IMG/VR virus record: IMGVR_UViG_3300037502_001319
Location: 1-32,554 of that record
Length of the DNA: 32,554 bases
Reading direction: 5' to 3' (one strand)
DNA from: a virus
Positions 8,441 to 31,337 of this stretch are shown here, one piece after another. How positions within the stretch are numbered: position 1 is the first letter of the stretch; each line of letters starts with the position of its first letter. The translations under genes were made by a program, and so were the position numbers. The notes under the pieces are model-generated. The model had not been told where the DNA came from and made no database searches. It saw only the letters and a program-made list of their open reading frames with translations.

Positions 8441-9463
8441 TTACGCAAGTCCCGCCTTGCGACAAGCCACACACGCGCCTCTGGTGAAACGCGGGCTGAT
8501 ATGTCCGTGGGTACACGGTTGACCGGTGAAGTAATGTTTTTCTCCCTTGTCCTTTGCCTCCTGACGCGTGCGGGGCAGGTGCTTGAACTCTTCCGGGATC
8601 TCAACGGGCGCTGGCGGCTCTATGGGCGCGTCTGCGTAGCAGAACAGCCATCCGGTCAGTTTCCCCTTGGCAAGCGGCTTCTGGGTCTTCATGACCCGTA
8701 CAAGCATCTGATACGGCACGCCGAGCTCCTCACCAGCAAGCGCAGTCCCGGGAAAGTCTCGACGGGTACCGTCAGGCAGGATGGCGTAGACCGGGCGGCG
8801 CATCTTTTCCTTGGACTCTTCGGTGTGGCTCTTGCCGAGGAAGTTCTTGTTCCCCCTGACCCGCTGGCGGATGGCTTCTTTTTCTGCTTCAGAAAGTGTC
8901 CGCCCCGGCCGTCCAATTTGCGCTTGGCTAATCTTCCTACGCGTCTCTTCGCTACGTGTTTTGCCCAGCCAAAAAGGCTGTGGGTTAGCTAATTTGGATT
9001 GGCGAATACGCTCTTTTGTCTCATCCGAATGCGTTTTACCAAGTCTGGGATGATTGTTAGGGTCTTCGGCGTAGAAGGCTTTGAGCGTTGCAGATATAGC
9101 TTCTTTTTGCTCTTCTTTAATTGGAACCTGGTACTTTGGGTTGCTTGCACCAAACCGACCACGCATGGGTGCGTCAGGAGAACTGCCTGCGTTATAGCAG
9201 TACGGTTTACCAAAATGCTCAGTAAGCCAGCGCGCTTCTGCGTCCCAAAGTTTAGTCGCGTCCTCGATGACTTCTTGAATTTCAAATCTGAAGCAGGCTT
9301 CACCGTACTTATTCCACGAAGCCTGAAGGTGCTTACAGTGATGGCGGTTATTTTGTAGAAGTTTTACGTGATTGCGAAAGCGTTCGCGGGCATCAATCGT
9401 ACTTCCAACGTAGAACTTGTCGTTGACCGTGTTGCGGATTTTGTAAATGACCGGCTGCTTCAA
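8441..9463 (-). CDS. GIY-YIG homing endonuclease with NUMOD3 repeats and C-terminal zinc finger
   Basis: The N-terminal GIY-YIG nuclease domain is complete: VIYKI (Tyr7), FYVGST (Tyr18, Gly20), Arg28, His32, catalytic Glu76 and Asn91. It is followed by NUMOD3-type DNA-binding repeats (GKTHSDETKERIRQSK, GKTRSEETRRKISQAQ, GKSHTEESKEKM). The C-terminus has CTHGHISPRFTRGACVAC, a probable zinc finger. It should nick or cut DNA at a specific site, probably in related phages lacking the gene. The start is TTG at 9463 with GGAG six bases upstream. It lies between the capsid gene's terminator and the next structural gene, has its own promoter, and is less GC-rich than its neighbours. All this fits a mobile, free-standing homing gene. 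Confidence 0.92.
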   Translation of the reverse strand: MKQPVIYKIRNTVNDKFYVGSTIDARERFRNHVKLLQNNRHHCKHLQASWNKYGEACFRFEIQEVIEDATKLWDAEARWLTEHFGKPYCYNAGSSPDAPMRGRFGASNPKYQVPIKEEQKEAISATLKAFYAEDPNNHPRLGKTHSDETKERIRQSKLANPQPFWLGKTRSEETRRKISQAQIGRPGRTLSEAEKEAIRQRVRGNKNFLGKSHTEESKEKMRRPVYAILPDGTRRDFPGTALAGEELGVPYQMLVRVMKTQKPLAKGKLTGWLFCYADAPIEPPAPVEIPEEFKHLPRTRQEAKDKGEKHYFTGQPCTHGHISPRFTRGACVACRKAGLA

Positions 9464-18284: not shown

Positions 18285-18301
18285 GATATCCGCCGGATAA
18301 A
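18285..18301. repeat. Degenerate copy of the 17-bp palindrome
   Basis: GATATCC-GCC-GGATAAA differs from the GTTATCC-N3-GGATAAC consensus at one position in each arm. It lies about 70 bases upstream of the first rightward gene. Its position just upstream of a gene, like the perfect copies, suggests relatedness, but chance similarity cannot be excluded. Confidence 0.45.
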
Positions 18302-18370
18302 ACACGCGTTTCCCTATAGTGTAGGCGTGACAAACCTACATTCAATCAACCCTGACAAAAGGATGTCATC

Positions 18371-18916
18371 ATGTCCACGAAGCAAACTGCAAAGATCGAA
18401 GCCCTTAAGACTGTCGTGTCGTGCGCGCGTAACTATGCATCGATGGGTGCGAGCCTGACGCATGCCGCGATGTCTGCCCTGCTGATCGGCTGCGACGCCG
18501 AAGATGTCATTGAGGCCGCGCGCGGCGGGTATGAAGAGGCCGGTGAGGTCCTGCCCTCCGCTTGGGCTTCTAACCTCCGCCGCGTGGCAGCGGCAGGGAA
18601 GCGGCACATCGAGGCCGTGCGCGACGCGGATCGGTCCCTGAACAATCGTCTCTTGGACGATGTCGGCGTGCCGAAGGCTGGCAAGGGCGGGCGCCCGAAG
18701 GGTAAGCCCGAGACGAAGGCCGCAGCGAAGGGCAAGCCCGACACCGCGAAGGCCGACGCACCTAGTGTGCCGAACGCCGATGCATCGTGGAAGCAATTCC
18801 TCGAGACCCTGCGGGCGCAGGCCCCGGGTCGTAAGGATTGGCAATCCGAAGATATCGTAGCGTTTCAAGAGTGCGCTACCCGCATGATCGCCCTGATCGC
18901 CCGCAACGCGAAGTAA
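18371..18916 (+). CDS. AT-hook-containing hypothetical protein (181 aa)
   Basis: This is the first gene of the rightward block. The N-terminal half is helical (TVVSCARNYASMGASLTHAA, then GGYEEAGEVLPSAWASNLRR). Residues about 103-130 are a Lys/Ala/Pro-rich linker with GGRPKGKPE, an AT-hook-like core that binds the minor groove. The C-terminus (SWKQFLETLRAQAPGRKDW) is another helical domain. It looks like a DNA-binding accessory or regulator, but I do not recognise the family. ATG at 18371 has AAAGGA upstream, and a terminator follows directly. Confidence 0.6.
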   Translation: MSTKQTAKIEALKTVVSCARNYASMGASLTHAAMSALLIGCDAEDVIEAARGGYEEAGEVLPSAWASNLRRVAAAGKRHIEAVRDADRSLNNRLLDDVGVPKAGKGGRPKGKPETKAAAKGKPDTAKADAPSVPNADASWKQFLETLRAQAPGRKDWQSEDIVAFQECATRMIALIARNAK

Positions 18917-18923
18917 TCAACCC

Positions 18924-18946
18924 GCCCCCTTCGGGGGGCTTTTCTT
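18924..18946 (+). terminator. Rho-independent terminator
   Basis: Stem GCCCCC/GGGGGC with TTCG loop (18924-18939) is followed by TTTTCTTT. It lies 8 bases after the stop of the 181-aa gene. The downstream 54-aa gene begins only 12 bases after the T tract with a GGAGG site, so some read-through or a separate start is needed for it. Confidence 0.82.
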
Positions 18947-18957
18947 TCGGAGGCTAT

Positions 18958-19122
18958 ATGGATTTTGATTTCATAATCGCGACGGTAGAAATTTTAGACC
19001 CCCTCACTATGTTCCCCATTGTGCGGGAATGGCAATGGCTAACGCCGGATGACTGCCTTAGACTGGCGGAAGAATACGGAGTAGACGAGATTATCGGCCA
19101 CGTAGTCCACTGGCCGAAGTGA
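18958..19122 (+). CDS. Small acidic hypothetical protein (54 aa)
   Basis: The frame from ATG at 18958 is preceded by an ideal GGAGG site (18949-18953). It encodes MDFDFIIATVEILDPLTMFP and ends HVVHWPK. A longer frame to 18838 exists but overlaps the previous gene and terminator. The C-terminal part (LTPDDCLRLAEEYGVDEIIG) is helical. Flanking terminators on both sides make it an isolated unit. Function not recognised. Confidence 0.65.
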   Translation: MDFDFIIATVEILDPLTMFPIVREWQWLTPDDCLRLAEEYGVDEIIGHVVHWPK

Positions 19123-19127
19123 CCGAC

Positions 19128-19161
19128 GCCCCGCAGGGTTCGCGCCCTGCGGGGCTTTTTT
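19128..19161 (+). terminator. Strong rho-independent terminator
   Basis: An 11-bp perfect stem, GCCCCGCAGGG/CCCTGCGGGGC, closes a six-base loop (19139-19144) and is followed by TTTTTT. It starts 6 bases after the stop of the 54-aa gene and should end rightward transcription here, isolating the first two genes from the following non-coding region. Confidence 0.92.
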
Positions 19162-19283
19162 GTGTCCCTACGGGACCGGGTGTCAAGAGTACGCGAGCGG
19201 CACGCCAGCACGCGAGACCCACCGCCAACAACGCCCGCTGCGCCTGCACGCGAGCCACGCACACTGCGCACACATCGCGCTGA

Positions 19284-19300
19284 GTTATCCAGCGGATAAC
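19284..19300. repeat. 17-bp palindrome, copy 1
   Basis: GTTATCC-AGC-GGATAAC, perfect 7-bp arms with a 3-bp centre. It is paired with copy 2, 39 bp away centre to centre, close to a whole number of helical turns, as in cooperative operator pairs. Confidence 0.85.
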
Positions 19301-19322
19301 CAACCCACGCGCTTCTCACAGA

Positions 19323-19339
19323 GTTATCCAACGGATAAC
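19323..19339. repeat. 17-bp palindrome, copy 2
   Basis: GTTATCC-AAC-GGATAAC, with the symmetry extending by one base on each side (A and T). Preceded like copy 1 by a GAGTTATCC context. It lies in the non-coding region after the strong terminator. Confidence 0.85.
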
Positions 19340-19651
19340 TACGCCCCACGCCGACACCCGGTCCCGAGCAGGGGGCGAGGAAGGCAGCGGCCCGCCGTGG
19401 CCGGTTTGTTCCAAATGTTCCAAGTTCTTTTCTATGAAAACTATAAGTATACAGCTAGGGGTTTTCACTTCTCTTGTCCGGGAAGCGAATAAAGTATAGC
19501 TCTCATTCCGGTGGTGTGGCGGCTATGGTTTTTTTGGGCCTCGAACAAAAGAACCACGGAACAAACACGGCAAATCAACAACTTACGCGCGCCGACCCCG
19601 TTCCCCACCTGCCTCATTTTTGAGCAGTCGCTATATGTCTTTTTTCAGCGC

Positions 19652-19673
19652 ACTATACAAGGCCTTCCTAAGG
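19652..19673. repeat. Direct repeat, copy A (ACTATAC...GGCCTTCCTA)
   Basis: This copy shares ACTATAC, AGGCCTTCCTA and a terminal GG with a second copy 78 bp downstream, differing by an A/T change and one extra A. The TATACA part resembles a -10 box, but I see no good -35 box 16-18 bases upstream. Possibly a phage-specific promoter or protein-binding site. Confidence 0.7.
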
Positions 19674-19729
19674 TGTGTTGTAAACACGCGTCACTTTACT
19701 ATGCTAGCCCCCAAAGACTATACAGCCGT

Positions 19730-19750
19730 ACTATACTAGGCCTTCCTAGG
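19730..19750. repeat. Direct repeat, copy B
   Basis: The second copy of the ACTATAC-T-AGGCCTTCCTAGG element, ending 19 bases before the ATG of the 348-aa gene. A third, shorter ACTATACAG lies at 19717. The closeness to the start codon suggests control of that gene. Confidence 0.7.
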
Positions 19751-19769
19751 CAACCCCGGAGCCCTCTCC

Positions 19770-20816
19770 ATGCAGCACCCCGACCCCACCCTCCTCGCAC
19801 GCCGCGTCGCCCTCCGCGTCGCCCCCGACAAGCGCTTCCACGTCGTCTACCGGTCCAACCACCTCAACCCCCGTGCCTCCTGGGGCCTCACCGTGCCCAC
19901 CCTGCACTCCACCTACACCGCCGACCTCTCCAACCCCGACGAGACCACCTACTCCAACCCGATCCTCATCTTCGACAACTACCACGTGCCTCTCATCTGC
20001 TACCTGCCCGCCTTGCAGGTCACCATCCAGCACCCCGACGACGCCGAGCCCCACACCATCAACCCCATCACCGGGCATCCCGGCATGCAGGTCACCGAGG
20101 TGCTGGAGATCGAGGCCATACGCTCCATGCAGGGACCGACCCGCGCGGGCAAAGGCGGCACTGCCTACCAAGACTCGCTCCTGCGTGACCGCAACAGGCT
20201 GATCGCGGACATGTTCACCAAGCGGTGTGCCAAGGGTCTCACCACGCATCAGGCAGTAGCTTCCATATGCAAGCGCATGCTCATTGGACCCAGCACCGTG
20301 ACCGTTGCGATGGCAGAGGAGGGCTATACGTTCGACCCGCCGAAGGCGCGAAGTAAGCCCAAGTTCAGCACCTCGTATGACCACCACTACAAGAACACGC
20401 GGCTGAAGAAGATGGTGATGATGTTCCGCACCAACATCGGCCCGGTGCACAAAGTGGGTTCGTTTGAGATCAATGACCTGCTCACATCAGGCCCAGGCGG
20501 ATACCCAACCCACTGCCCAGTGACGGGCGTAGAGCTAGATTGGGGCGTGGACTCGTCCATCCGGTCGGTCCGTATCATCAAGATCAATCCGACTGAGAAG
20601 GTCTCCGGTAAGAATGTGCTGATCGCATCACACATTGGCCGCTACCTGCTGAGCGACACTCGATCTCCTAAGAGCATCGCCTACATGCTGCGCAGCGTGC
20701 CTGATGCAGATGACATCCTGCGTAACACGAAGAACTGGATCGACCTGCATCCCGGTAACGAGATGGGTGCAACGACTGTGCGTTGCGTGGAACACGAACT
20801 GAGGAACGGCTCATGA
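19770..20816 (+). CDS. Probable DNA-binding protein: HTH-like segment plus degenerate endonuclease VII/HNH-like treble clef (348 aa)
   Basis: Residues about 150-185 (LTTHQAVASICKRMLIGPST, then VTVAMAEEGYTF) look like a helix-turn-helix. Residues about 240-300 hold YPTHCPVTGVELDWG, then IIKINPTEKVSGKNVLIASHIGRYLLSD. This parallels phage nucleases with CPVxGxxL...LDRIDPxKGYVxGNVxVIS, but the catalytic DR-like positions are changed (KI), suggesting a binding-only or altered nuclease. The first 350 bases use C at nearly every third codon position, unlike the second half, so the gene may be chimeric. Its stop overlaps the next start (ATGA). A regulator or recombination nuclease is possible. Confidence 0.55.
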   Translation: MQHPDPTLLARRVALRVAPDKRFHVVYRSNHLNPRASWGLTVPTLHSTYTADLSNPDETTYSNPILIFDNYHVPLICYLPALQVTIQHPDDAEPHTINPITGHPGMQVTEVLEIEAIRSMQGPTRAGKGGTAYQDSLLRDRNRLIADMFTKRCAKGLTTHQAVASICKRMLIGPSTVTVAMAEEGYTFDPPKARSKPKFSTSYDHHYKNTRLKKMVMMFRTNIGPVHKVGSFEINDLLTSGPGGYPTHCPVTGVELDWGVDSSIRSVRIIKINPTEKVSGKNVLIASHIGRYLLSDTRSPKSIAYMLRSVPDADDILRNTKNWIDLHPGNEMGATTVRCVEHELRNGS

Positions 20817-21094
20817 ACGCGTTGATTTGGTATCTGTCTGATGCCATACCGTATTACGCCGACGAAGGACCGAAGGATTACGAATGGTTCCCGTACGATG
20901 ACAACTGTTACGATGATGAAGAGACCGTGTACCTCTACGGAGACGGCGTGGCTTTAGGTTACGGCAGCGGAAACGGATGGGGTGCTCGCGGTTACGGGGT
21001 CGAGTACTCAAACGATGCGTGGAGTGGCGAACGGGGCGACGGGTCCATGTTCGGTGACGGGAACGAAAGATACCCAGTGGTTTTTGAGGACTGA
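20813..21094 (+). CDS. IWYLxDA-type Gly/Asp/Tyr-rich small protein, copy 1 (93 aa)
   Basis: The start ATG overlaps the previous stop (ATGA). The product begins MNALIWYLSDA and then becomes acidic and rich in Gly, Asp, Tyr and Asn (YLYGDGVALGYGSGNGWGAR). The opening matches two other small proteins at 26113 and 26215 (MILIWYLADAAMHG, MIFIWYLADAVMHG). Hence there is a family with a conserved 10-residue N-terminus and a variable Gly-rich body. No known domain. A sigma70 promoter for the next unit follows the gene by about 75 bases. Confidence 0.65.
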   Translation: MNALIWYLSDAIPYYADEGPKDYEWFPYDDNCYDDEETVYLYGDGVALGYGSGNGWGARGYGVEYSNDAWSGERGDGSMFGDGNERYPVVFED

Positions 21095-21169
21095 ACACCA
21101 CCTGAACACGACACCGAAACGCGACAAATAACCAACCGAAATGAAGTACCCAAACCCTTGACAAAACCC

Positions 21170-21198
21170 TTGACATAACCCCCCACTTGTGATACAAT
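21170..21198 (+). promoter_or_regulatory. Strong sigma70 promoter
   Basis: TTGACA (21170-21175), exactly 17 bases, then TACAAT (21193-21198): a perfect -35 box and a 5-of-6 -10 box. A second TTGACA at 21158-21163 forms a tandem ACCCTTGACA repeat. Transcription should start near 21205, giving a leader of over 400 nt before the 94-aa gene. A perfect copy of the 17-bp palindrome lies at roughly +28 to +44, a position suited to repression. Confidence 0.82.
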
Positions 21199-21231
21199 AA
21201 TGATGTTGGGTGGGAAATCGCACAACAACGG

Positions 21232-21248
21232 GTTATCCACCGGATAAC
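21232..21248. repeat. 17-bp palindrome, copy 3 (promoter-proximal)
   Basis: GTTATCC-ACC-GGATAAC, located just downstream of the predicted start of the strong promoter, so protein binding here could block transcription. The left arm plus centre reads TTATCCACC, 8 of 9 positions of a DnaA box. Confidence 0.85.
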
Positions 21249-21503
21249 GCGGGTACCAGTTCTTTCACAATTCGCATCATGCGCCGACTAACATCGGCGG
21301 CAGGCTTTGCCTGCTAGTACACCCCGCCTCGTGCGGGGTCCCTGCGATCCTTGGCGGGTAAGAATCCCTGCGAGGATGATGTACGGCAACGTGCATCGAA
21401 AGGCCCTCAAGTAATCCCGTGAGGCAGGGACGGTGCCCTTAATCACCACAACTGCACGGGGGTGCATGGTAGGTTCGGAAATACTCGCCTGCCTAAACGC
21501 CCC

Positions 21504-21600
21504 CTGCTTAAAGGGTTTGATGGTTATCCCCTGGATAACACGCTGCGCGCTTTGCGTCCGCAGCCTGCCTAAATACAAACACCCCGAGCCCTTTAAGCAG
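21504..21600. repeat. 12-bp inverted repeat enclosing a palindrome
   Basis: CTGCTTAAAGGG and CCCTTTAAGCAG are exact reverse complements separated by 73 bases, with GTTATCC-CCT-GGATAAC in the loop. It could form a long-range RNA stem in the leader or a DNA cruciform. The right arm ends 29 bases before the 94-aa gene. Confidence 0.75.
21523..21539. repeat. 17-bp palindrome, copy 4
   Basis: GTTATCC-CCT-GGATAAC, inside the loop of the 12-bp inverted repeat in the long leader. The centre differs from other copies while the arms are perfectly kept, as expected of a protein-binding site. Confidence 0.85.
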
Positions 21601-21628
21601 CGTCGTGCTGCGAACACCGGAGAGTGAA

Positions 21629-21913
21629 ATGAACATCATCACCAACAACCGCCCACGCCCGCTGGCGTGCCTCGTGGACCTGCCTGCCAAGGTGCAGGAG
21701 GACTTCGACTACCTCAACGACCCGCACGAGTACCGGCTGGTGCAGTACAAAAGCCACTGGTACGACGTTTACGACAGCCAGTCCATCACCCGCGAGTTGG
21801 GCTTCGACCAGTTCAAGGGCTGGCACGGCATCCAGTCAGACTCGTTTTTCTCCGGCATCCTGTTCCGCCTCGTCGGTGACGACGAGGTGATTGTGGGCCG
21901 CTACGCGGCCTGA
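21629..21913 (+). CDS. Conserved small phage protein (94 aa)
   Basis: The centre reads VDLPAKVQEDFDYLNDPHEY followed by RLVQYKSHWYDVYDSQ, and the end is DSFFSGILFRLVGDDEVIVGRY. This is a pattern I recognise from many phage early regions without known function. ATG at 21629 has GGAGAG upstream. A frame beginning at 21605 is longer but lacks a site. It is the first gene after the strong promoter and long leader, so probably expressed early. Confidence 0.65.
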   Translation: MNIITNNRPRPLACLVDLPAKVQEDFDYLNDPHEYRLVQYKSHWYDVYDSQSITRELGFDQFKGWHGIQSDSFFSGILFRLVGDDEVIVGRYAA

Positions 21914-21922
21914 GGAGTTGAC

Positions 21923-22189
21923 ATGATCAAGACCGAGACCTTCCTGCTGCCCATCCACTGGGCCCCGTACCTCATCAACGGTGACGCGTCGGGGTACACC
22001 GACGCAGAGATTGCCGAGATCGACGAGTGGGAGACTGCACATGCCCCGGGCCCGTGCATCGATGTGGAGGAGTACGCCGAGTTCTGCTGGCGCGGCGACG
22101 ATGGCCTGATGGGGGCGGACCGTGCGACGTTCACGTTCCAAGTCATCACGCCGTGTTTCGCGGATGGTGAGCCCATCGCGTGGCACTGA
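21923..22189 (+). CDS. Small conserved phage protein (88 aa, DUF6926-like)
   Basis: The start MIKTETFLLPIHWAPYLING followed by DASGYTDAEIAEIDEW resembles a widespread small phage family (I recall it as DUF6926, unverified). The rest is acidic with ATFTFQVITPCF. GAGGAG precedes the ATG by 5 bases. Function unknown. It belongs to the early-type run started by the promoter at 21170. Confidence 0.62.
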   Translation: MIKTETFLLPIHWAPYLINGDASGYTDAEIAEIDEWETAHAPGPCIDVEEYAEFCWRGDDGLMGADRATFTFQVITPCFADGEPIAWH

Positions 22190-22236
22190 CCTGCCAAACA
22201 CAGCCAACACCAGCAAAACTATAGGAGTGAGAAGCG

Positions 22237-22506
22237 ATGAATAAATCCGAACTTGCAAAGGCCTTTGTCATGGGCCGTTCAGGCAGTTGCCACAATGCGC
22301 ATACCGACGGGCAGACGTACACGCTGCACAAGTCCCCCATCGTGGTGAAGCATGGTACGCAGTACCAGTTCTACTGGCACAGGTATTACACGGTGACGAC
22401 GGCATCGCATATGAATGAGGTGCTGCGTGCGCTCGGTGCGCCGTTCCGTGTGAGCTACGCACAAGCCCGCGACAGCGGGCAGGACTGCTTTGTGTGGGGG
22501 GTGTGA
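22237..22506 (+). CDS. Hypothetical protein (89 aa)
   Basis: The product begins MNKSELAKAFVMGRSGSCHN and has a His/Tyr-rich centre (YQFYWHRYYTVTTASHMNEV). It may be a small beta-helix mixed fold. AGGAG lies 9 bases upstream of the ATG, and the stop overlaps the next start (TGATG). I know of similar proteins only as phage hypotheticals. Confidence 0.6.
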   Translation: MNKSELAKAFVMGRSGSCHNAHTDGQTYTLHKSPIVVKHGTQYQFYWHRYYTVTTASHMNEVLRALGAPFRVSYAQARDSGQDCFVWGV

Positions 22507-22664
22507 TGCGCTGGCCTCGCCGTGGCTGCCCCGAACTGCATCAACGCGGCAAGTGGTGGCTCGTGCGGTGGTATGACCCTATCACTAAGCGTGCCCGTGC
22601 ACTGCGTACTCGTAGCGAAACGTACGCTAAGATGGTGTATGAATTCATGAAGGGAACGAGATGA
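22506..22664 (+). CDS. Tiny basic protein resembling an integrase arm-type DNA-binding domain (52 aa)
   Basis: The core GKWWLVRWYDPITKRARALR followed by TRSETYAKMVYEF has the look of the three-stranded beta plus helix arm-binding domain found at the N-terminus of tyrosine integrases, but there is no catalytic domain here. It is strongly basic. Both ends overlap neighbours (TGATG at the start, ATGA at the end), which supports it being real. A stand-alone DNA-binding protein is likely, but this is inferred from pattern only. Confidence 0.5.
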   Translation: MRWPRRGCPELHQRGKWWLVRWYDPITKRARALRTRSETYAKMVYEFMKGTR

Positions 22665-22873
22665 GGTGTGTTAACTGCAATGACGATATCGACCCGCGTC
22701 GGGTGGCCCTCGGTTACCGAGTGTGTCTTCTGTGCGGCGAGGAAGCTGCCCGCGAGGAAAGGACCCGGTGGTGCGTCCTCACGCCCCACAAGCAAGGTGC
22801 CATGTTCTTCACGAGCGAGTTCGCTCGTGAGGCGGCGAAAGGTATTGGAAACAAGGGCGGTTTGCACCGCTGA
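22661..22873 (+). CDS. Zinc-ribbon phage protein (70 aa)
   Basis: The start MRCVNCNDDIDPRRVALGYR followed by VCLLCGEEAAREERT has two Cys pairs (CVNC and CLLC) around DPRRVALGYRV. This matches a common small phage protein with a DksA/TraR-like zinc finger layout. The remainder includes CVLTPHKQGAMFFTS. ATG overlaps the previous stop. It may modulate transcription, but the DksA coiled coil is absent, so this is only suggestive. Confidence 0.65.
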   Translation: MRCVNCNDDIDPRRVALGYRVCLLCGEEAAREERTRWCVLTPHKQGAMFFTSEFAREAAKGIGNKGGLHR

Positions 22874-22882
22874 GAGGACATT

Positions 22883-23113
22883 ATGAAACTCAACATCGAA
22901 GTTACCGACCTGTTCGGACACGAGCCGAACTATTCGTGGGTGCGTCGCCACGAACTGGAGGTGCCCGAATGCATGTCCAACTACAGCATCGTGCGTCGTG
23001 TCAAAGCCCTCATTGGGTGGAACGGTAGGAGGTGTGTCACCACCGATCATGGTGACATGATAGAATTACGTCCTTACGGGGCGTGCCTTGTGTGTTTCGT
23101 AACGTTCAATTAA
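22883..23113 (+). CDS. Hypothetical protein (76 aa)
   Basis: A small mixed-charge protein starting MKLNIEVTDLFGHEPNYSWV, with RRVKALIGWNGRRCVTTDHG and a C-terminal cysteine pair (ACLVC). The ribosome-binding site GAGAGGA precedes the ATG. It is the last gene before the palindrome at 23119. It looks like a phage small early protein. No function recognised. Confidence 0.58.
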   Translation: MKLNIEVTDLFGHEPNYSWVRRHELEVPECMSNYSIVRRVKALIGWNGRRCVTTDHGDMIELRPYGACLVCFVTFN

Positions 23114-23118
23114 CAGCG

Positions 23119-23135
23119 GTTATCCACCGGATAAC
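23119..23135. repeat. 17-bp palindrome, copy 5
   Basis: GTTATCC-ACC-GGATAAC, identical to copy 3. It is located 36 bases before the start of the DUF3150-like gene that opens the MoxR/VWA module, and is followed by a GNRA-loop hairpin and a CTAGGAG site. Confidence 0.85.
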
Positions 23136-23170: not shown

Positions 23171-24109
23171 ATGAGCATCACATCCATCACCGCCGCTGCC
23201 ATGCTGGGCAGCATCAATATCTCCGTGTGGGAAGCACGAAAGCAAGACCGCAAGACTGCCGAGGAGGTGGCCGTCTCCAAGGGTGCACGGTCTAAGCGCG
23301 CCGCCACGGTGCATAAGCATTTGTTTTCGGAATGTCCGGCCCTTGAAGCCATAAAGTCCCTGCGCGGCGAGGTGCGGCAGTGGTTCAACACCGTGACCCC
23401 ACCCTGGGATGACAACGGTTGGCGCATCGTGACCGTAGCCCAGTACCTCGACATCACGGCGCAGGCTTCCAAGTACGAGCAGCGGTTCAACGCACTGGTG
23501 CGGACGTTCCTCGCGACATACTCAACGGAAATCTCGAAGCAGGCCTTCGAGATGGGCGCGCTGTTCGACCGCAGCGAGTACCCGCACGAGGACGAGGTGG
23601 CTGCCAAGTTCCGCTTCTCGTACGCAATCCAGCCCCTGCCTGCGTCGGGTGACTTCCGCGTGGATATCGGCAACGAGGCGAAGAACCAACTGATCGAGCA
23701 GTATGAGCGGCAGATCACGGAACGGGTGTCACGCGCTGTGGCTGACGCGTGGGAGCGGGTCAAAACGCAGGTGGAGTGGGTGCGTGAGCGCATGGATGCT
23801 GTGCTGGCGTACGACCCCGATGCCGTGGAGGAGGTCAAGACCACGGACGACGACGGTGCCGTCGTGTCGGTCGAGATCAAGAAAAAGCGCCGCCCCAAGC
23901 TGTACGACAGCATGCTGGAGCAGGGCCTTGCCCTGACTGACCTGCTCAAGGACCTGAACGTGACCAACGACCCGCGCCTGGAGGAAGCGCGGCGTGATTT
24001 GGAGGCGGCACTGAGCCGCGTCGACATTGACTCCCTGAGGGAGTCCCCCGAACTGCAACGCAGCACGCAGGCTGCTATGCAGGATATTCTCGACAAGTTT
24101 GCGCTGTAA
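23171..24109 (+). CDS. DUF3150-like protein, first gene of the MoxR/VWA module (312 aa)
   Basis: The start SITAAAMLGSINISVWEARK followed by QDRKTAEEVAVSKGA, then HKHLFSECPALEAIKSLRGEVRQWFN, matches my memory of DUF3150 proteins of proteobacterial phages and plasmids, often near MoxR/VWA genes. The rest is strongly helical and charged (QLIEQYERQITERVSRAVAD, then AWERVKTQVEWVRERM), suggesting a scaffold or partner protein. CTAGGAG lies upstream. The downstream AAA+ and DUF2201 genes suggest it is a substrate adaptor or structural component of that module. Biochemical function unknown. Confidence 0.6.
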   Translation: MSITSITAAAMLGSINISVWEARKQDRKTAEEVAVSKGARSKRAATVHKHLFSECPALEAIKSLRGEVRQWFNTVTPPWDDNGWRIVTVAQYLDITAQASKYEQRFNALVRTFLATYSTEISKQAFEMGALFDRSEYPHEDEVAAKFRFSYAIQPLPASGDFRVDIGNEAKNQLIEQYERQITERVSRAVADAWERVKTQVEWVRERMDAVLAYDPDAVEEVKTTDDDGAVVSVEIKKKRRPKLYDSMLEQGLALTDLLKDLNVTNDPRLEEARRDLEAALSRVDIDSLRESPELQRSTQAAMQDILDKFAL

Positions 24110-24147: not shown

Positions 24148-24732
24148 ATGTTTGACATCAACACCGCTATCAACACCGCTATCGCCACGGCAGTTGCCGA
24201 GGCTACCCGTCCGCTTCTGGAACGCATCGCCGTGCTGGAGGAGACGGTGGACATCAACAATGCCAGTATCGCCACGCTGAATAACCGGCTGAACGAGGCT
24301 GCACCTGCCGTTCAAGTCGACGAGGCCAAGATGGTCGAGGCACTGAACTCTCAGGAATGGTTCTGGGAAAAGCTGTCCCGGTTCGTCACCGACAACAGCA
24401 GCATCACCGTCGAGGACTTGCACATGGTGCAGCGCCGCGTCACCGCACTGGAGGGCAGCATCACCGTCGAGGACTTGCACATGGTGCAGCGCCGCGTCAC
24501 CGCACTGGAGGACGCACGCTACCAGGGTGCGCTGAGCCGCAGCGATGTGGAGGCGTTGATCGAAGCGGCAATCAACGACCACTGCGAGACCTACGACCAC
24601 GACCAGTACGACGAGGTCTATAACGAGTGGGGCGGCGAGAGCCCGGACGAGTTCGTCAGGGACGATGACCTGCGTGGCACGGTCGAGGAAGTCATGAACA
24701 GCGCTTCGTTTGAAGTGACTGTGCGCCTGTAA
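24148..24732 (+). CDS. Coiled-coil protein with exact 57-bp tandem repeat (194 aa)
   Basis: Residues about 10-55 form a coiled coil (EATRPLLERIAVLEETVDIN, then SIATLNNRLNEA). Residues 85-122 are two copies of SITVEDLHMVQRRVTALE(G/D), identical at the DNA level apart from the edges. The C-terminus is acidic (NEWGGESPDEFVRDDDLRGT). It looks like a structural or adaptor protein rather than an enzyme. It is placed between the DUF3150-like and AAA+ genes with a TAGGAG site, so probably part of the same module. No family recognised. Confidence 0.58.
   Translation: MFDINTAINTAIATAVAEATRPLLERIAVLEETVDINNASIATLNNRLNEAAPAVQVDEAKMVEALNSQEWFWEKLSRFVTDNSSITVEDLHMVQRRVTALEGSITVEDLHMVQRRVTALEDARYQGALSRSDVEALIEAAINDHCETYDHDQYDEVYNEWGGESPDEFVRDDDLRGTVEEVMNSASFEVTVRL
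24399..24513 (+). repeat. 57-bp tandem repeat within the coiled-coil gene
   Basis: Two adjacent copies of a 57-bp unit (24400-24456 and 24457-24513) differ only near the copy edges. In protein this is a 19-residue duplication, SITVEDLHMVQRRVTALE plus G or D. The near-perfect identity points to a very recent duplication or an assembly duplication. Confidence 0.9.
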
Positions 24733-30616: not shown

Positions 30617-30891
30617 CCACACTACGTGAAGCAGCGCAGCATGTGGCTGCCGAACTGCGTGCCGACATCAACTACACAAGTATGGGCACGCCGCAATCGA
30701 TGCGGGATGAATGGATGGCAGAGATGGCCGAGATGCTGGAGAAGGCAGCGGAGCCTCTTACTTTGGACAAGTTGTCCAACGCCCTCGTGATGTCCCGTCT
30801 TATCGACAAGGACGCCATTGAGAACCCCGAGGAGTACGACGACGGCGTGACGCTGGAGCAGGTACGGGCTGTTTATAGGGGGCTGGTATGA
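30613..30891 (+). CDS. Small phage protein with MTTLREAAQHV N-terminus (92 aa)
   Basis: This is the second of three neighbouring genes with related N-termini. It is helical and acidic (DEWMAEMAEMLEKAAEPLTL, then DDGVTLEQVRAVYRGL). It starts and ends with ATGA overlaps. No domain is recognised beyond the shared leader. Confidence 0.5.
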   Translation: MTTLREAAQHVAAELRADINYTSMGTPQSMRDEWMAEMAEMLEKAAEPLTLDKLSNALVMSRLIDKDAIENPEEYDDGVTLEQVRAVYRGLV

Positions 30892-31337
30892 GTGACCTGA
30901 GGAAAGCCGCCCAGCAGGCGCTGGAGGCGTTGGAGGGAGACTGCATTCCTTGGTCTGGAGGCCTACTGCAAGGATACGGAATCATTTGGAACTTTGGTGC
31001 CCCAAAGAAAAGAAAGAAGGCCCACGTTGCCGCATGGGAATCTATCAATGGACCAGTTCCAGATGGATATGTTTTGGACCATCTATGCCGCCGAAGCTGC
31101 GTGAACACAAAACATCTTGAACTTGTGACTGCCGCAGAAAACACATTGCGCGGCTTTGGGCCCACGGCGATCAACGCCAGGAAGACGCACTGCGTCCACG
31201 GCCATGAACTCTCTGGCAAGAATTTACTGATTGATTACCGAGGCCGAAGGAAGTGCAAAACATGCCAAGCGGCCCACGAAAAGGCATACAAAGACAGGCA
31301 AAAGATGGAGCAAAGCAATGAACAATGCGGAACTTGA
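30888..31337 (+). CDS. HNH homing endonuclease fused to a MSDLRKAAQQALEALE leader (149 aa)
   Basis: After the leader (1-17) comes a typical phage HNH endonuclease: DCIPWSGGLLQGYGI, AHVAAWESINGPVPDGYVLD, then HLCRRSCVNTKHLELVTAAE. The motif residues are Asp64-His65, Asn73 and His76, with Cys67 and Cys71. The end, THCVHGHELSG...CKTC, is a zinc finger like the one in the GIY-YIG enzyme. It should cut DNA, probably at a homing site in related phages. The leader matches two neighbouring genes, so the nuclease probably invaded such a gene just after its start. The nuclease body is visibly less GC-rich than its flanks. Confidence 0.85.
   Translation: MSDLRKAAQQALEALEGDCIPWSGGLLQGYGIIWNFGAPKKRKKAHVAAWESINGPVPDGYVLDHLCRRSCVNTKHLELVTAAENTLRGFGPTAINARKTHCVHGHELSGKNLLIDYRGRRKCKTCQAAHEKAYKDRQKMEQSNEQCGT

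Follow-up and report, generated by a model that had tools for sequence, protein, structure and literature searches.

A phage repressor need not confine itself to a single control region. In the Cluster A mycobacteriophages, such as L5, Bxb1 and TipsytheTRex, one repressor serves numerous sites scattered over promoters and the short gaps between genes, and a site upstream of its own gene is autoregulatory (PMC6550527, PMC9283540). In these temperate phages the sites are asymmetric, 13 bp long and occupied by a repressor monomer whose helix-turn-helix (HTH) is recognised; site sequences are lineage-specific, and the distance between motifs correlates with the distance between genomes (PMC6550527, PMC9283540). 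In Streptomyces phage R4 the repressor works both on an early promoter and on numerous sites between genes (PMC10276819).

The locus described here lies in an IMG/VR virus record, IMGVR_UViG_3300037502_001319, all 32,554 bases of which are referred to as the window. In the window and its relatives alike, one site recurs several times within a genome, at promoters and in the gaps between genes. As in Cluster A, the copies are dispersed, one of them lies upstream of the proposed regulator gene, and site sequences are lineage-specific. Unlike those of Cluster A, the sites are palindromes rather than 13-bp asymmetric sequences bound by a monomer. The proposed regulator matches no recognised domain, searches found no integrase, and the type of palindrome does not follow genome distance, exchange between near-identical genomes being frequent. 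The R4 pattern of sites at an early promoter and in many intergenic gaps is also shared, whereas R4-type phages are temperate actinophages with integrases. Phages phiC31 and phiBT1 carry conserved inverted repeats, 17-bp palindromes across the early region that are bound by the phage repressor; the dispersed 17-bp early-region palindromes of the window resemble these, although phiC31 and phiBT1 are unrelated, temperate phages. In lambdoid heteroimmunity, repressor and operators are exchanged as a cassette, and joint exchange of gene and operators is again the point of likeness, but lambdoid phages are temperate, with CI-type HTH repressors and few, clustered operators. Functionally the arrangement resembles the stoperator systems; it differs from them in its palindromic sites, its unrecognised regulator family, the lack of integrase, resolvase and ParB matches in eight records, and its frequent exchange. 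A literature search of partial coverage found no relevant account of palindromic operators between the genes of lytic phages.

Palindromic sites in the window

The window consists of a leftward block of terminase, portal and capsid genes and a rightward early region encoding, among others, a DUF3150-like protein, an AAA ATPase and a DUF2201 metallopeptidase/VWA protein. Its nearest terminases among named phages, at 40-46% identity, are those of Pelagibacter phages HTVC023P and HTVC027P, phage DSL-LC04 and Planktothrix phage Pag-Yong1. Judged by eye, a GIY-YIG-like homing endonuclease sits between structural genes (8441-9463) and an HNH-like endonuclease in the region of small genes (30888-31337); a small early protein (24148-24732) contains an in-frame tandem duplication (VEDLHMVQRRVTALE twice). 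Integrase, resolvase and ParB domains (PF00589, PF00239 and PF02195) were sought in eight records, some of them fragments, and none was found, while capsid relatives within bacterial assemblies lie overwhelmingly on contigs from metagenome-derived bins. The phage group thus far shows no temperate signs, and the absence of lysogeny genes is provisional because some records are fragments.

A sequence-only reading had drawn attention to GTTATCC-N3-GGATAAC in the rightward half of the window, and its five perfect copies and one copy with two mismatches were recovered at the positions claimed (Table 1). None of 100 shuffles reached eight or more matches at three or fewer mismatches (shuffle mean 0.68), and the half-site GTTATCC is absent from the rest of the window outside the five perfect palindromes. 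All six sites are non-coding, touching not one coding base of the gene list in an early region where non-coding DNA makes up 13%; mechanical open reading frames do overlap the sites at 19284, 19323 and 21523, with weak or no ribosome-binding sites and without a conserved homologue to mark them as genes. Two sites form a pair whose starts are 39 bp apart. The degenerate copy at 18285 is counted as real because nearly all relatives hold a palindrome there, some 85-130 bp ahead of the first early gene.

Table 1. Positions of putative operators, promoter elements and genes in the window
Feature	Position	Strand	Evidence
Site 1, degenerate GATATCCGCCGGATAAA, putative operator at first-early-gene promoter	18285..18301		2 mismatches; syntenic palindromes between conserved flanks
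TATAGT, -10-like element of first-gene promoter; site 1 overlaps -35 region	18315..18320	+	Read from sequence; kept in relatives
Proposed cognate regulator, encoded by first early gene (181 aa, pI 9.3); N-terminal part variable, C-terminal part conserved	18371..18916	+	Palindrome-type covariation
Putative operator, perfect palindrome, first of pair	19284..19300		Equivalent pair flanks TTGACA promoter in G003, G005, G006 and G012
Putative operator, perfect palindrome, second of pair	19323..19339		As for first of pair
Hyperdiverged 348-aa protein, probable target gene; stretches resembling HTH and HNH by eye	19770..20816	+	14 homologues, mostly 18-38% identical
Sigma-70-like promoter TTGACA-N17-TACAAT, 11/12 match	21170..21198	+	Conserved in relatives
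Putative operator ~28 bp beyond expected start	21232..21248		Motif scan and promoter position
boxA-like sequence GTTCTTTCACAAT (GCTCTTTAACAAT in relatives) in long leader RNA	21259..21271	+	Read from sequence; relatives
Putative operator, perfect palindrome, preceding gene at 21629	21523..21539		Motif scan
Putative operator between gene ending at 23113 and DUF3150-like gene	23119..23135		Palindrome likewise placed in G001, G003, G012, G005 and others
DUF3150-like protein, downstream target gene	23171..24109	+	Protein matches

A scan of viral contigs for the bare motif gave 57 loci, mostly with single copies; those with several (L030, L038, L047 and L074) are distant relatives of the window phage, and the first gene of L038 falls, by eye, in the other main first-gene family. 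A second repeat, ACTATACNAGGCCTTCCTARG, occurs twice upstream of the 348-aa gene (19652-19673 and 19730-19751) and resembles a -10 element combined with an operator of another kind.

Positions kept and sequences replaced in related phages

Thirteen relatives (the G series) were recruited through the DUF3150-like protein and read as whole sequences, and more were added later using the first early gene; this is a sample by protein matches, not a random sample of phages, and some records are fragments. The perfect palindrome of the window occurs in 0 of the 13, nearly all of which have another repeated palindrome at equivalent places: ahead of the first early gene, in the stretch separating that gene from the 348-aa gene, just past the latter, and in front of the DUF3150 and ATPase genes and of later ones. 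Across the window and its relatives the sites are palindromes of 16-18 bp, with GTTAACCACGGTTAAC in G012 and G006, RTTAAACGCGTTTAAY in G003 and G005, GTTATACASTGTATAAC in G002, G013 and G011, GTTAGGAAGCTTCCTAAC or GTTAGTAACCTTACTAAC in G001, G007 and others, and GCGTTTACYRGTAAACGC in G008 and G009. Divergence of the arms in related phages had been proposed as grounds for abandoning the operator reading. Taken literally the arms are indeed not conserved, but they change together with the regulator gene, and from the compared sequences we regard this joint change as evidence for operators, not against them.

Replacement at fixed positions also bears on whether the palindromes might be DnaA boxes marking a replication origin or a DnaA-titrating element, a rival raised from the outset on the resemblance of TTATCCAC, present in two copies, to a DnaA box. 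Close relatives have TTAAAC, TTAACC, TTAGGA or TTTACC instead of TTATCC at the same sites, the sequence TTWTNCACA is not kept among them as DnaA boxes require, and DnaA specificity would not differ between phages with identical terminases; the idea fails on these comparisons and is scarcely credible. ParB/parS sites were likewise rejected, no ParB homologue (PF02195) having been found in eight records, some of them fragments.

Covariation of palindrome type with the first early gene

Across the phages compared, the families of first-gene proteins match palindrome types and do not match genome relatedness. Among 25 phages, identity of the first gene predicts a shared site-1 type with an AUC of 0.953, against 0.525 for terS and 0.488 for terL; among 30 distinct phages the AUC is 0.915, with most nearest-neighbour errors coming from L122 and from the single-member class of the window. 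On the far side of the first gene the AUC reaches 1.0 (24 phages; 0 of 1000 permutations as good), and further GTTTAC-type relatives, recruited later, all carry the predicted palindrome type. The closest pairs make the same point at single loci. G001 and G012, and G006 and G007, are 100% identical in both terS and terL, yet their first genes are 18-21% identical and their palindromes, set between conserved flanks, differ; G002 and G003 share 99% of terS and 94% of the 348-aa protein and differ in both first gene and palindrome. The claim that the palindromes are operators for a dimeric protein is well supported, and palindrome type tracks the first early gene.

The covariation has its exceptions. 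The site beyond the 348-aa gene lies over 2 kb away from the first gene and still matches the first-gene class wherever found, except in G001, and further downstream G001, G002, G007, G009 and G013 have sites that mismatch their own first-gene class. Such sites would be expected from cassette exchange that leaves older sites behind; they may be relics of an earlier specificity or, possibly, the sites of a second regulator. L122 has a protein of the TATAC class and a site 1 of the GTTTAC type, although its +842 site does match. Linkage could explain part of the covariation, because site 1 and the next site lie near the first gene.

Two other proteins had a claim to the palindromes. The 348-aa protein adjoins the paired sites and sits between sites, has an HTH-like stretch, and varies among phages as much as one might expect of a protein that switches specificity; its identity nevertheless fails to predict palindrome type (AUC 0.567, permutation p 0.28, against 0.995 for the first gene in the 12 phages where the two are comparable). 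G002 and G003, with 94% identical proteins, have different palindromes, and the same palindromes accompany proteins only 29% (G012 and G006) or 21% (G002 and G013) identical. It was rejected as specificity determinant on this lack of covariation, and that it binds the palindromes at all is quite improbable. The gene is in its own right unusually fast-changing or repeatedly replaced, its protein being mostly 18-38% identical among phages in which the flanking genes are 70-95% identical. The winged-helix protein (29441), originally put forward as a binder, dropped out: its only relative in the compared regions is a partial match in G001, while palindrome type follows the first gene.

What the first-gene protein itself offers is a basic character (pI 8.7-9.6 in all six checked) and little that is familiar. 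The window protein has no Pfam match, PHROG matches at chance level only and no match to a PDB family, and its predicted structure is poor (pLDDT 48); that of the other main family is better (pLDDT 73), with no significant match in PDB or BFVD, and no clear homology links the two main families (hhalign probability 12%). The covariation with palindrome type is strong and directly observed; since the protein has no recognised DNA-binding domain and no fold match, it is from this covariation that we infer DNA binding. Operator specificity probably resides in the N-terminal part, because the window and G012 share the C-terminal part of the protein (79%, 61/77) yet differ in operator, their N-terminal parts being 14% identical (12/88). 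A search for a second phage with the N-terminal part of the window protein found none, and the link between the window's own protein and operator is drawn by analogy, because the window is the sole member of its palindrome class in the phage group.

The same layout appears in Planktothrix phage Pag-Yong1 (OL906435), where GGTTCA-N3-TGAACC (GGTTCAGNCTGAACC) occurs 16 times within the 41 kb that were read, once 74 bp upstream of a 187-aa first early gene, and where 9 of the 11 early-region copies are wholly intergenic. Because its first-gene protein has no detectable similarity to the other first-gene families, Pag-Yong1 supports the layout, not homology. The records MinM2 and Pra-JY27 encode that protein with 100% identity. 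OL906435, OQ594354 and PP438419, each of 65,014 bases and with an identical first-gene protein, name different cyanobacterial hosts, and their host assignment may deserve checking; a literature search of partial coverage returned no paper on Pag-Yong1.

Site geometry and a proposed repressor

The placement of the sites relative to promoters suggests what a bound protein would do. The paired sites flank a TTGACA promoter in four relatives, with no evident promoter between them in the window; the site past the 348-aa gene keeps a near-constant distance beyond the conserved TTGACA-N17-TACAAT promoter, about +28 in the window as first noticed there; and in G005 and others palindromes stand immediately before ribosome-binding sites. 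This geometry fits repression or roadblock, as in stoperator systems. Site 1, lying at or just upstream of the -35 region, and the lack of a good -35 element in some first-gene promoters would suit an activator of early or middle promoters, but the flanking pair, the site near +28 and the sites before ribosome-binding sites fit repression or road-blocking better, and activation seems unlikely. Arms of 7 bp around a 3-nt centre could also be read as hairpins, whether N4-type virion RNA polymerase promoters or structures in mRNA leaders, and the window phage has ATPase genes in common with several named phages that we take to be N4-like. Against this, no giant RNA polymerase gene was seen by eye among the large open reading frames of the near-complete relative G001 (which include a 2259-aa protein), sigma-70-like promoters are present alongside the palindromes, and many relatives have perfect 14-16 bp palindromes with a spacing suited to binding of double-stranded DNA, so that hairpins are highly improbable.

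The conserved promoter is followed by a long non-coding leader (21206-21620 in the window) holding a putative operator, the boxA-like GCTCTTTAACAAT and then conserved structured modules; the same leader is found in G003, G005, G006, G008, G009, G012, G013 and L107, the window copy being diverged. One module of 62 columns has compensatory changes on both sides in 8 of 20 pairs, and an Rfam search of the window and eight relatives gave nothing above threshold. The structured module is a candidate new phage RNA.

Taken with the covariation, the geometry makes it likely that the first gene encodes an autoregulating repressor of the early region, exchanged together with its matching operators. The small, basic and probably dimeric protein would bind the palindromes, repress its own promoter and other early promoters, and obstruct transcription passing through the early region, with early-gene shut-off or a timing switch as the outcome. 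Its variable N-terminal part would set operator specificity, and related phages would swap the gene and nearby operators as a unit, so that each lineage has its own, non-cross-reacting set.

A wider proposal is offered tentatively, as one that may well not hold: phages without detectable lysogeny genes might carry DNA-binding autorepressors of a family not described before, exchanging the specificity part and the operators between genomes like an immunity cassette, such that co-infecting relatives of the same type cross-repress and those of different types ignore each other, a heteroimmunity without lysogeny. The analysis puts a name to a candidate regulator in an aquatic phage group whose early genes are almost all unannotated, and at least six natural regulator-operator pairs are on offer for studies of orthogonality in vitro. 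If the arrangement is true of strictly lytic phages, it raises the question of why they should diversify repressor specificity as temperate phages do, to which competition or interference in co-infection may be one answer.
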